From a bacterium SCSIO 12741 (GTDB lineage Bacteria; Bacteroidota; Bacteroidia; Flavobacteriales_G; Salibacteraceae), in the NCBI GenBank assembly GCA_024398055.1, contig CP073749.1, positions 2,046,594-2,110,593 on the forward strand: a stretch of DNA of 64,000 bases, given 5' to 3'. The position numbers were made by a program, and so were the translations under genes. Numbering within the stretch: the first letter of the stretch is position 1; each line of letters begins with the position of its first letter. The notes beneath the pieces are model-generated. The model worked only from the letters and a program-made list of their open reading frames with translations, was not told the DNA's origin and did no database searches. Below are positions 401 through 4,575 of the stretch, in pieces.

Positions 401-1096
401 TTACTTCACCAAAAGCTTAAATCCTTTACCGTGAACGTTGACGATTTCAATGTTCTCGTCCCCTTTCAGGTACTTACGCAGCTTGGTGATGTACACATCC
501 ATACTTCTTGAGTTGAAGTAAGAGTCATCGCCCCAAATCTGGTTCAATGCGTTGGATCGATCCGTCACCTCATTTAGGTTCAGCGCTAACAAACGAAGCA
601 ATTCATTTTCCTTCGATGTCAATTTTTGGGTTTCGCCGTTAATGGTCAATTCCTGAAGCTTGGAGTTAAATGAGAAGTTCCCAATTTCAAACTCTTCTTG
701 CTTTTGGTGATCACGTTCCTTTTTGGTTCGTCTCAAAATGGCTTGAACACGCATCAAAAGCTCTTCCATAGAAAAGGGCTTGGTGAGGTAGTCGTCTGCA
801 CCAATTTTGAAGCCTTCAATTTTATCTTCCTTCAGCGACTTGGCTGTTAGAAAAATGATCGGAATTTCAGGATTGATTTTGCGAACATCTTTGGCCAGGG
901 TAAAGCCATCCTTCTCAGGCATCATCACGTCGAAAATACACAGGTCATAGGTGCCGGTTCTAAAAGCATTAAGGGCTTCTTTTCCGTTTCTATGCAATTC
1001 ACTGTCAAATCCTTTGGCTTGCAAATACTCGTTCAACAAATCGCCTAAATTGTGGTCGTCTTCAGCTACGAGTAATTTGATAATTTCCTTCTCCAT
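401..1096 (-). CDS. OmpR-family response regulator (RprY-like)
   Basis: This is a DNA-binding response regulator of 231 residues. The receiver domain (about 7-120) has the acidic pair in VAEDD, the phospho-acceptor Asp56 in FDVMMP and Lys106 in LTKPF. A winged-helix effector domain of the Trans_reg_C type follows (about 135-230), including the usual D-Y-I-x-x-L-R-K-Y-L recognition segment. The ATG start lies 6 bases after the stop of the histidine kinase gene, so the two are co-transcribed and form a cognate pair. The resemblance is to Bacteroidota RprY regulators; the signal and the regulon are not visible. The direct repeats upstream of the kinase gene are a candidate binding site. Confidence 0.93.
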   Translation of the reverse strand: MEKEIIKLLVAEDDHNLGDLLNEYLQAKGFDSELHRNGKEALNAFRTGTYDLCIFDVMMPEKDGFTLAKDVRKINPEIPIIFLTAKSLKEDKIEGFKIGADDYLTKPFSMEELLMRVQAILRRTKKERDHQKQEEFEIGNFSFNSKLQELTINGETQKLTSKENELLRLLALNLNEVTDRSNALNQIWGDDSYFNSRSMDVYITKLRKYLKGDENIEIVNVHGKGFKLLVK

Positions 1097-1102
1097 GATG
1101 TC

Positions 1103-2728
1103 TTAATTATTAACGATATTGTTCATTGGCAAAGTGACAGTAAAAGTACTACCTTTATTTAACCTACTAGTCACTTTGATCGAGCCGTCATGCCGTTCTA
1201 CAACGGTTTTAACATAGTTTAGCCCTAGTCCAAATCCCTTTACGTCGTGTTGATTTCCGGTAGGTACCCGGTACAATTTATCAAAAATTTTCTTCTGGTT
1301 TTCTTTACTGATTCCAATTCCGTTATCCTGAACCGAGAATAGGAAGTTATCTTTCTCATTATAGGTGCGAATCAGAATTTGCGGATCTTCCTTCGAATAC
1401 TTAATAGCATTATCGATAAGGTTGTAAACGGCATTGGCCACATGAATCTGATCCCCTTCCAATATACTGGACTTGGCATCATGCTGCACCTGAATATTTC
1501 CGGACTTTTCACGCAATTGCATTTGAAATTTGGAAATAGCCGAGTCAATGATTTGCTGCATATCGATGCGCTCTTTATTCATTTTAAAGGCCTTACTTCC
1601 CCAAATGGCGCTCTTGAGCACGTTTTCTACCTGCACGCCTAAGCGCTTATTCTCCTCACCAATAATGCCAATATAGCGGGTGAGTAGGGCAGGGGTAGTT
1701 TGAATGTCTTTGTCACCCAGCGCCTCGCAAGCCAAAGAAATGGTTGAGATTGGCGTCTTGAGCTCGTGAGTCATATTATTGATGAAGTCATTTTTGATTT
1801 CAGAAAGTTTCTTCTGCCTCAAAATCATTTTTACGCTGTAGAAAAAAGCTGCTGAGATGAGGATGACCAGCACAATGGAGCTAAGCAGCAACCAGGAAAT
1901 AGATCCTACGATATAAGAAATGCGGTGCGGGAAAAATACCTTGAGTGAGCTATCATGCCGAATTAAATCTTCGGGAAAAAGAGTCACTTCGTAAATTCCT
2001 TTATTTACTTCTTCAGCATTGGTGAAACTGCCCAATCGGTAATTGCCTTCCTTGTCATATACCCCAAAGGCAAAATCGGCTTCAATGCCCTCTTGCCTCA
2101 ATTCATTTTGAATCAAGTCGCGAAGTTGCATGGCATCGATTCTGTCCTCAATTTTTTCGGAAAGGTCTACCTCCACCAAGCTTCTAACAATATCGCTAAC
2201 CAATACCGTTTGATTCACCAGTCGATTTTTTACGGCAGAATCCAGGTGCATATCCAGATGAGCTCCTGTGTAGGTACTTCCGTCGTTGGCCCCAACCGAA
2301 CCGTAGTTCAGTGGATCGGCACCATCGGTAAATGGAGCTTCGTGTTGGCCTCGGGTAATGATGTCTGTCACCGTACGTTTACCATCTTGCTCCTCAACCA
2401 ATCGAATTTCGATTCCCTCATCCTTCTTTTCGAGTTCCTTATAAATAAGGTATTGGTAAGATGTATCGTTGATCGATTCCTCTAAACTTTGGGGGTAAGC
2501 ATCGCTAGTAAATAGGAAGCGACCCTGCTTATGAGTCTTAATTCGGCGGATGGTTTCTTCCTTGGCGAGCTTTTCTACCACCCTTTCCAAGGCATTGTAT
2601 ACCAAGGGGCTGAACTCGTCTTTTTTCAGGTCAATGGCCTTGCGAACCCAAAAAAGTTGAATGCTGATCAGGGCCACTAACGTGAATGCGATTCCAACTA
2701 TGAGCCCATGGATTAATTTGTTGTTCAA
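1103..2728 (-). CDS. Sensor histidine kinase (RprX-like)
   Basis: This is a membrane sensor kinase of 541 residues. One membrane segment lies at about 7-27, a periplasmic sensor region of about 240 residues follows, and a second segment lies at about 272-297. The H-box NNMTHELKTP carries the phospho-accepting His321. The ATPase part has the N-box (NLIDNAIKYS), the G1 box (DNGIGI) and the G2 box (GFGLGLNYVK). No HAMP domain is evident between membrane and H-box. The only workable start is a TTG at 2728, 17 bases downstream of a convincing -7 box. It leads the operon with the response regulator. The periplasmic ligand is unknown. Confidence 0.93.
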   Translation of the reverse strand: MNNKLIHGLIVGIAFTLVALISIQLFWVRKAIDLKKDEFSPLVYNALERVVEKLAKEETIRRIKTHKQGRFLFTSDAYPQSLEESINDTSYQYLIYKELEKKDEGIEIRLVEEQDGKRTVTDIITRGQHEAPFTDGADPLNYGSVGANDGSTYTGAHLDMHLDSAVKNRLVNQTVLVSDIVRSLVEVDLSEKIEDRIDAMQLRDLIQNELRQEGIEADFAFGVYDKEGNYRLGSFTNAEEVNKGIYEVTLFPEDLIRHDSSLKVFFPHRISYIVGSISWLLLSSIVLVILISAAFFYSVKMILRQKKLSEIKNDFINNMTHELKTPISTISLACEALGDKDIQTTPALLTRYIGIIGEENKRLGVQVENVLKSAIWGSKAFKMNKERIDMQQIIDSAISKFQMQLREKSGNIQVQHDAKSSILEGDQIHVANAVYNLIDNAIKYSKEDPQILIRTYNEKDNFLFSVQDNGIGISKENQKKIFDKLYRVPTGNQHDVKGFGLGLNYVKTVVERHDGSIKVTSRLNKGSTFTVTLPMNNIVNN

Positions 2729-2744
2729 AGGAAAATATTTGCTG

Positions 2745-2775
2745 CAAAAATAGAGGCTAACTTGTAGATAATCAA
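2745..2775 (-). promoter_or_regulatory. Bacteroidota-type promoter of the rprXY-like operon
   Basis: On the minus strand a TTG (2775-2773) is followed after exactly 20 bases by TATTTTTG (2752-2745). This fits the TTG-N17-23-TAnnTTTG consensus of the main sigma factor in Flavobacteria. The kinase start codon lies 17 bases further on. Confidence 0.7.
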
Positions 2776-2778
2776 TAC

Positions 2779-2813
2779 TTAACAGTAATTAACAGGCGTT
2801 AAGTCCCGTTAAC
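2779..2813. promoter_or_regulatory. Four tandem TTAA(C/G) boxes at 10-bp spacing, candidate operator
   Basis: TTAAC, TTAAC, TTAAG and TTAAC begin at 2779, 2789, 2799 and 2809, each exactly 10 bases apart. They lie just upstream of the -33 box of the rprXY-like promoter. Direct repeats on one helix face are how OmpR-family regulators usually bind, so autoregulation by the neighbouring response regulator is a reasonable inference. There is no direct proof. Confidence 0.55.
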
Positions 2814-2902: not shown

Positions 2903-2936
2903 AAAGAGGAACCACCCGGTTCCTCTTTCTTTTTTA
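2903..2936 (+). terminator. Rho-independent terminator without an upstream gene
   Basis: Perfect 11-base arms AAAGAGGAACC (2903-2913) and GGTTCCTCTTT (2918-2928) enclose a 4-base loop and are followed by a T-rich run. No plus-strand coding sequence ends here, because the gene to the left is divergent. The rest of the 317-base gap (2729-3045) holds the promoters and boxes listed separately and no convincing small gene. Confidence 0.75.
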
Positions 2937-2963: not shown

Positions 2964-2994
2964 TTGGATTATATGCCCAAAGTGCATAGTTTTG
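2964..2994 (+). promoter_or_regulatory. Promoter of the T9SS cargo gene
   Basis: A TTG (2964-2966) and TAGTTTTG (2987-2994) are separated by 20 bases, fitting the Flavobacteria consensus. The box overlaps an ATG at 2992 and so argues that translation starts downstream, at 3046 or 3022. Confidence 0.65.
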
Positions 2995-3045
2995 GAGGTT
3001 TCAAAATTAGATGGAATCTACATGACGCAATCAAAGACTTATCGT

Positions 3046-4575
3046 ATGAAAAATAAAGGAGTTTGGGGAGTGATGCTCGCTGTAGGGATGATGTTTTTCT
3101 CCTTTTCAGGAATGGCGCAAACCACGGTATCGGCCATTGGATCTGATACTATTTGTAGTGGCGATACAGTATCGCTAGTGGCTACTGGTGCTACCACCTA
3201 TGCCTGGACTGATACAACAGGTAACAATACTTTGTCTGCTTCTTCAGGAGACACGGTTAAGGCCTATCCGACGATGACCACTACCTATATGATTGAAGGA
3301 ACAACGGGTTCCACTAAAGACACAACGTATTTTAAGGTTACGGTTCGCGCCGATCCGAACGTTAAGATCACCTTGAGTGCCCCTGCGGTATGTTTGGCTG
3401 ATACACTTTACCTCTATGGTTCTGGAGCCAGCACTTATGAGTGGAGTTCTACAGGTACACTTCCTGTAACTACTGGAGATACGGTTTATGATAACCCACT
3501 TACTCCTAAAACCTATTATGTAAAAGGTACTGACATGCACGGTTGTGTTGGACGCGATACCATCGGTGGACAAGTTAAGCCTCTTCCAAGAGAGAACTTT
3601 AGAACCACTGTTGACGGGTTTGAAACGCCTAACCGTGTTTGTGCTAACGAAACGCTTACTTTGACTGCGACCCACGGAAATAACCTTTCTTATACTTGGG
3701 CTCCTGCGAATGTGTTGAGTGGTACTACTGGTCCTCAGGTTACTGCAAACTTGACTCAAAACGAAACTATTTTCTTAACCATCGATAGCGCTAACGGATG
3801 TTCTCGTACCGTTCAGAAGTTGGTTACTTTGAATAGCCAAGTTCCTAAAGTGAACGTTCAACGTGATGAAGAAGCGATCTGCTTGGGTCAAACTTCTCAA
3901 ATCACCATTCTTGGTGCCGTTGATGTGCGTTGGTCTCCGACCACTGGATTGGACAATCCTAATTCTAACGTGGTGAATGCTAACCCAACAGCTACTACCA
4001 CATACAATGTTAAGGGACACACCGATGGATGTATCGATGATACTTCAATTACGGTTACTGTTCACCCACTTCCAACACTTTCTTTGTCTTCTTCTTCAGG
4101 AGGAACTGCTCAATGTGCTGGTGTAGCTGATACCATTACAGCTAACTCAAACGGTATTTTGTTTGATTGGGGATTTGGTGTGATTTCCACTAAAAAGGTA
4201 AAAGCATTTAACACGTATGAAACTACTGTGATTACGGTAATAGCTTTCTCTGATAAAAACTGTGAGAATTCAGCAAACATTCAAATTCGTGTAGATACTA
4301 CTTGTGGTACTCCATTGAATGTTGAAGAGAATAACTACTTGCAGTCAGTTCGTGCATGGGTTAACGGCCAAGATCAGTTGATTTTGGAAGGAAATCCTAC
4401 ACAAGATTTGAACTGGAGCTTAGTAGATATGAATGGTCGTCAGGTAGGACAAGGTATCTGGTCTGCAGAAACTACCGAAGTTACTTACGACTTAAGCGAA
4501 CTTGAACAAGGCATTTACGTGGTGCGTCTTCTACAAGGTTCTGAGCAATTTCATCAAAAGATTGTTAAGCAGTAG
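3046..4575 (+). CDS. Secreted T9SS cargo protein with Ig-like/PKD-type repeats
   Basis: This is a secreted protein of 509 residues. The chosen ATG gives a clean signal peptide (MKNKGVWG, hydrophobic core, cleavage near GMAQ); an in-frame ATG at 3022 is possible. The body holds several roughly 80-residue beta modules with a recurring pattern of Cys, GDT(V/L)xL, YxW and TTYxVKG, as in the Ig-like/PKD-type repeats of Bacteroidota surface proteins. The last 80 residues look like a type A T9SS sorting domain: W-x-L-V-D-M-N-G-R, then L-E-Q-G-I-Y-V-V-R-L and a final KIVKQ. It has its own promoter and a strong terminator, so it is probably monocistronic. Ligand and function are unknown; adhesion or a structural surface role is a guess. 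Confidence 0.85.
   Translation: MKNKGVWGVMLAVGMMFFSFSGMAQTTVSAIGSDTICSGDTVSLVATGATTYAWTDTTGNNTLSASSGDTVKAYPTMTTTYMIEGTTGSTKDTTYFKVTVRADPNVKITLSAPAVCLADTLYLYGSGASTYEWSSTGTLPVTTGDTVYDNPLTPKTYYVKGTDMHGCVGRDTIGGQVKPLPRENFRTTVDGFETPNRVCANETLTLTATHGNNLSYTWAPANVLSGTTGPQVTANLTQNETIFLTIDSANGCSRTVQKLVTLNSQVPKVNVQRDEEAICLGQTSQITILGAVDVRWSPTTGLDNPNSNVVNANPTATTTYNVKGHTDGCIDDTSITVTVHPLPTLSLSSSSGGTAQCAGVADTITANSNGILFDWGFGVISTKKVKAFNTYETTVITVIAFSDKNCENSANIQIRVDTTCGTPLNVEENNYLQSVRAWVNGQDQLILEGNPTQDLNWSLVDMNGRQVGQGIWSAETTEVTYDLSELEQGIYVVRLLQGSEQFHQKIVKQ

Follow-up and report, generated by a model that had tools for sequence, protein, structure and literature searches.

The four phased TTAA boxes upstream of the histidine kinase gene described here are, very likely, the autoregulatory operator of an RprXY-like two-component system, whose RprY-like regulator is predicted to bind GTTAA half-sites and to control (most likely activate) its own kinase-regulator operon (hk-rr). 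The site is real and conserved, and very probably functional. Its kind is known, namely a direct-repeat operator through which an OmpR-type regulator controls its own operon, and the moxR-bat operon is a known target in one species. What is new is the fixed geometry of the site, its spread and depth, the recurrence of the site at degP, and a shift between 10-bp and 11-bp spacing. The features concerned lie near one end of the window (the whole 64-kb stretch of DNA that was analyzed):

401..1096, minus strand: response regulator, RprY-like, OmpR/PhoB type, 231 aa (ORF; Response_reg and Trans_reg_C)
1103..2728, minus strand: histidine kinase, RprX-like, 541 aa, listed start codon TTG (ORF; HisKA and HATPase_c)
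2745..2752, minus strand: -7 element TATTTTTG, 26 bp to the proximal TTAA (from sequence)
2773..2775, minus strand: -33 element TTG (from sequence; presumed Bacteroidetes promoter form)
2779..2813, minus strand: candidate operator, four boxes at 10-bp steps (from sequence and conservation in related operons)
2903-2935, plus strand: terminator-like hairpin between the boxes and the rightward gene; stem of 11 pairs, T-rich tail, z -3.19
2987-2994: promoter-like -7 box TAGTTTTG of the rightward gene, ~170 bp from the boxes
2992-4575, plus strand: rightward gene, divergent from the kinase; encodes Ig-like (CHU_C-associated) and T9SS sorting domains

The four-box site and its operon

A first-pass annotation of this DNA had placed four phased TTAA boxes upstream of an rprXY-like promoter, and the sequence confirms them. 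TTAA starts at 2779, 2789, 2799, and 2809, that is, in exact 10-bp steps, and the forward strand reads TTAAC-AGTAA-TTAAC-AGGCG-TTAAG-TCCCG-TTAAC. Read on the minus strand, as for the kinase gene, this becomes GTTAA-N5-CTTAA-N5-GTTAA-N5-GTTAA, followed by TTG-N20-TATTTTTG, a layout consistent with a Bacteroidetes -33/-7 promoter. With up to two mismatches allowed, the four-box pattern matches twice in the window, once as the exact site and once as its own one-step-shifted copy; shuffled windows gave a mean of 0.08 matches, and 0 of 100 shuffles gave two. Exact phased TTAA triples occur at three loci in the whole 5.10-Mb genome (the window site, 4236544, and 4631335). Four phased TTAA also exist at 4631335, so that phasing by itself does not single out the window site.

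The protein presumed to read the operator is the RprY-like regulator encoded at 401-1096. It is of OmpR/PhoB type, with Pfam matches to PF00072 (98.1 bits) and PF00486 (60.2 bits), both above the cut-offs. Its best NCBIfam model is RprY (NF051850, an equivalog) with 333.4 bits, and because the cut-off of 370 is not reached, we name it "RprY-like". That cut-off was reached in 0 of the 148 genomes of our phylum sample, where many proteins score >280 bits; the model may therefore be too narrow to name the family outside its core genera.

In the mechanism that we propose, the RprY-like protein would occupy GTTAA half-sites that follow one another in the same direction along a single DNA face, immediately before the -33 element. 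The proximal pair would be taken by a head-to-tail dimer, with extension to the distal pair where it is present, and from its place beside -33 the bound protein could contact RNA polymerase. Whether each promoter is activated or repressed is likewise a prediction. For hk-rr, activation is guessed from the position of the operator; for moxR, activation is suggested by analogy with Riemerella anatipestifer; and for degP, repression would follow from what the available text on R. anatipestifer PhoP suggests, if the proteins correspond (PMC9603813).

It had also been proposed that transcription in both directions may be controlled from the gap. For the rightward gene, this finds no support: its -7 box lies ~170 bp away from the boxes, behind the terminator-like hairpin. 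The hairpin could end a short rightward transcript; no promoter for one was found. Relatives of the rightward gene adjoin the kinase in several near relatives.

Conservation and spacing upstream of related operons

Relatives of the kinase were sought in 60 genomes and relatives of the regulator in named contigs, of which 80 of 83 loci were kept. The resulting 115 loci yielded 96 kinase upstream regions, 90 after removal of duplicates, and 87 of sufficient length and quality to be tested for spacing. A TTAA pair 10 bp apart is present in 61 of these 87 regions, against a mean of 3.8 and a maximum of 7 after shuffling. Spacings of 11 bp (20 regions), 20 and 21 bp (39 and 19), and 30 to 32 bp (16, 19, and 14) were raised as well, and the remaining spacings from 5 to 33 bp were found in 2 to 11 regions each. 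The conserved core consists of two boxes, GTTAA-N4-TGTTAA, and was found in loci titled Flavobacteriales, Bacteroidales, Sphingobacteriia, Chitinophaga, Zixibacteria, and Aminicenantes; these taxon-titled loci are metagenome bins, whose titles may err. Four of the Zixibacteria-titled loci (L060, L077, L097, and L107) have four boxes in 10-10-10 steps as in the window, one imperfect box being allowed.

For a larger set, a further 55 loci and 20 same-family paralogues brought the number considered to 181, of which 25 were dropped (12 lacked a kinase or regulator hit, 7 were duplicates, 3 were short, 2 fell out by distance, and 1 contained N), leaving 156 operons. A strict label required a GTTAA pair matching at least 9 of 10 letters and, 23 to 33 bp away, a -7 box matching at least 5 of 6 letters. 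By this label, 82 operons are of the 10-bp kind, 38 of the 11-bp kind, and 36 have neither, whereas shuffled regions gave means of 0.27 and 0.33, respectively. The -7 box in the strict loci is TAnnTTTG-like, and its distance from the pair, within the 23 to 33 bp allowed, is 26 to 29 bp in 82/82 10-bp loci and 25 to 29 bp in 38/38 11-bp loci. Exact GTTAA pairs at 10 bp number 76 in 32,025 bp upstream of kinases versus 3 in 705,659 bp of neighboring DNA; at 11 bp, the corresponding counts are 38 and 3 in the same regions, and the remaining spacings from 6 to 16 bp occur 0 to 5 times each upstream of kinases. The combined operator and promoter pattern matched 82 times in the 60 genomes, versus 27 times for the reversed control; 40 of the matches, from 39 genomes, lie at kinase starts, and the other 42 do not. 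Conservation of the phased boxes upstream of orthologues, on which the first-pass annotation had staked its reading, is thus found, at a fixed promoter distance and in both Bacteroidota and Zixibacteria-titled contigs; an autoregulatory operator is expected to be conserved and to keep a constant position within the promoter of its regulator's operon, as the site does here.

Counting against the operator reading, the 36 operons without a strict site include five loci from gut-type Bacteroidales and Porphyromonadaceae (L064, L065, L074, L092, and L111) that are closer to the organisms in which RprY was named. Where an RprY-like gene has no kinase next to it (six loci in family f23, plus L233), inspection by eye of ~420 bp before the regulator gave no 10- or 11-bp GTTAA pair.

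The suggestion of two dimers on four half-sites stood in part. A matrix layout was possible for 79 of the 82 10-bp sites (three were too close to an edge); 29 of the 79 have four boxes, spaced 10-10-10 in 10 cases and 11-10-10 in 19, but the conserved core is only two boxes. We infer that the four-box form, together with its possible occupation by two dimers, is a lineage-dependent extension of the two-box core.

The spacing follows the regulators. On a FastTree tree of the 156 regulators, the spacings of the 120 labeled tips can be explained by 6 switches between 10 and 11 bp, against 27 to 38 in 200 shuffles of the labels on the same tree; many forks of this tree have weak support, and several of its long branches join. 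This match shows an old, slowly changing partnership of promoter and regulator, although, because the two are inherited together, the agreement is not proof of binding. In the window's own family (f1), the best full-length kinase matches, with the short L028 left out, are of the 10-bp kind in 25 of 27 cases and unlabeled in 2. Under the same strict label, the 22 paralogues of that family, two of them from the genome of the window, are of the 11-bp kind in 13 cases and unlabeled in 9, with none at 10 bp; a looser label puts one (L244) at 10 bp. The two paralogous systems of the own genome, L239 (G000:C1:3360697-3362479) and L240 (2392577-2394281), each have a GTTAA-type pair with 11-bp spacing ahead of the kinase; that of L239 is GTTAA-N6-GTTAA and yet falls outside the strict label.

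Recurrent sites at moxR-bat and degP

In ten family genomes (nine of genus g10 and one of g4), exact GTTAANNNNTGTTAA sites number 33 versus 23 for the reversed control, and by their coordinates, 19 lie at hk promoters, 10 beside moxR, and 4 elsewhere. These moxR sites were found from the sequence prior to comparison with PMC9603813. Among 30 relatives, 27 have an exact 10-bp pair upstream of moxR and pointing away from it; of the other three, L310 has the opposite orientation, L316 a 9/10 match, and L298 none. The divergent neighbor of moxR is a PRA-PH-like gene in 23 of the 30, as read from ORF starts, and something else or nothing clear in seven, five of which still have the site. In the genome of the window, the operon order is moxR-DUF58-hypothetical-batA-VWA-TPR-batD-TPR/SH3. 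Across 86 moxR-type regions, weaker paralogues included, 38 exact 10-bp and 14 exact 11-bp pairs point away from moxR, against at most 0.2 in shuffles. The best -7-like box (4 to 6 of 6 letters) lies 33 to 34 bp from the site in 24 of the 38 10-bp sites and 22 to 23 bp in 10 of the 14 11-bp sites, about one helical turn less. No exact pair was found before moxR in five genomes reached via Zixibacteria-titled loci, or in several others.

Both loci were examined in 54 genomes, 36 of them readable at both (18 are unreadable at one or both), and the hk and moxR spacings agree in 32 of the 36, 20 being 10/10 and 12 being 11/11. The discordant cases are two of 10/11 (G145 and G164) and two of 11/10 (G210 and G211); the hk loci of G210 and G211 fall among paralogues in the tree, with L103 on a long branch. 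Since 11 of the 12 11/11 cases belong to family f25, the co-shift mainly reflects a single evolutionary event, and a Fisher test on these counts takes no account of relatedness.

An exact 10-bp pair is found upstream of degP in 20 of 30 relatives; it points away in 17 and towards in 4, one relative being counted in both. Another 6 of the 30 match 9 of 10 letters, and 4 have none. In family f25, 13 of 14 genomes have a GTTAA pair before degP, and the steps are of 10 bp, of 11 bp, or mixed. Because these steps are mixed, a strict spacing rule is disfavored, and degP was rejected as a second cleanly co-shifting target. No exact pair was found before degP in any of the six f33 genomes examined. 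As a separate observation, two kinase promoters of family f24 (L204 and L209) are without a clean GTTAA pair; in the same genomes, moxR (L365 and L366) has a 10-bp pair and degP (L421 and L423) an 11-bp pair.

A readable operator leads to a small, conserved target set (the own operon, moxR-bat, and degP) that suggests a system for envelope or oxidative stress. Furthermore, the shift between 10 and 11 bp is a natural experiment in how regulators of the OmpR type gauge half-site spacing and how paralogues stay separate. One base pair of spacing could serve as an address, keeping paralogous RprY-like regulators with a common GTTAA half-site apart by 10- versus 11-bp operators, and a change of period in the regulator could have taken its own and the moxR promoters along; we put this forward as a tentative and rather doubtful proposal. 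A search for regulator residues separating the 10-bp from the 11-bp lineages was set aside: several positions correlate, and relatedness explains them equally. In family f25, the fixed regulator differences lie mostly outside the C-terminal recognition part.

Comparison with known operators and alternative explanations

The boxes of PmrA/BasR, CpxR, PhoB, and Bacillus subtilis PhoP are direct repeats of 5- to 7-bp half-sites about one turn apart, and differ from the present site in half-site letters or in having 11-bp periods. The ArcA box of Escherichia coli, according to the available text, likewise belongs to an OmpR/PhoB-type regulator and has a core of two direct repeats, often three to five; these lie 11 bp apart, in contrast to the 10-bp steps of the window and of 82/120 strict loci (PMC3798270).

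The nearest published parallel is R. anatipestifer PhoPR, like the present system an HK-RR operon with one promoter. The available text of PMC9603813 reports that PhoP binds its own promoter (a 35-nt stretch, -156 to -121; EMSA) and moxR of the Bat operon, so that autoregulation and the moxR link are known elsewhere and are targets shared with our system. Its DAP-seq motif has a conserved TTTAACA, reported as ArcA-like, which is the complement of TGTTAAA, and deletion of phoP lowers moxR, batA, and batC and raises a Do-family protease. The same text presents no 10/11-bp architecture, promoter distance, or cross-species comparison. A kinase and regulator under a common promoter are described in the accessible part of PMC5399024, and the moxR link is repeated in that of PMC11834572. 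RprY, the closest NCBIfam model, whose cut-off the window regulator does not reach, binds its own promoter in EMSA in Porphyromonas gingivalis, which is without the kinase, and also the ahpC, groES, clpB, and dnaK promoters (PMC3646045, available text). In Bacteroides fragilis, rprXY is reported to be the one essential two-component regulator (PMC4072883, available text). The operator letters matter here, as the available text of these RprY papers (PMC3646045, PMC4072883) gives no binding motif or operator sequence. In the open-access literature searched, no title or abstract retrieved dealt with the 10-bp architecture or its 10/11-bp shift.

The conserved phased boxes, together with the own-promoter binding of P. 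gingivalis RprY and R. anatipestifer PhoP (PMC3646045, PMC9603813, as far as their available text goes), uphold the autoregulated operator proposed at first pass. That a different transcription factor reads the boxes and controls hk-rr, moxR, and degP together seems improbable. It would suit three genomes (G066, G071, and G152) that have a 10- or 11-bp pair at moxR though their RprY-like gene is without an adjacent kinase or strict operator, and binding by the window regulator is a prediction. However, the spacing tracks the regulator tree and differs between paralogous systems of the same genomes, and in R. anatipestifer a similar regulator binds both moxR and the promoter of its own operon (PMC9603813, available text), which argues for the operon's own regulator as the probable binder.

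A reading without any protein operator, in which phased TTAA is an intrinsic bend or an UP-like element for RNA polymerase, would explain the helical phasing and the location directly before -33. We consider it highly improbable, since the G of GTTAA is conserved at 86% and 100% and the T preceding the proximal box at 76%, letters that bending does not need; moreover, the moxR element lies in the opposite orientation, and an 11-bp version exists. Phased TTAA triples at two other places in the genome might recall a chance repeat in A+T-rich intergenic DNA, but the shuffle and real-DNA controls speak against it, and the conservation already refutes it, leaving chance a negligible probability.

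The 583 peaks of R. anatipestifer PhoP (PMC9603813, available text) far exceed the few sites singled out here. In the genome of the window, the bare TTAANNNNTGTTAA pattern is not enriched (11 sites versus 22 in the reversed control), so a large regulon is not readable from it. One of these sites adjoins degP, as seen from the flanking ORFs. Other 10-bp sites of this genome precede a histidine-rich, cation-efflux-like gene (L117, G000:C1:1975689), an outer-membrane-like gene (L116, 158796), and an exonuclease-like gene (L125, 3718763), the gene names being guessed from the ORF starts.
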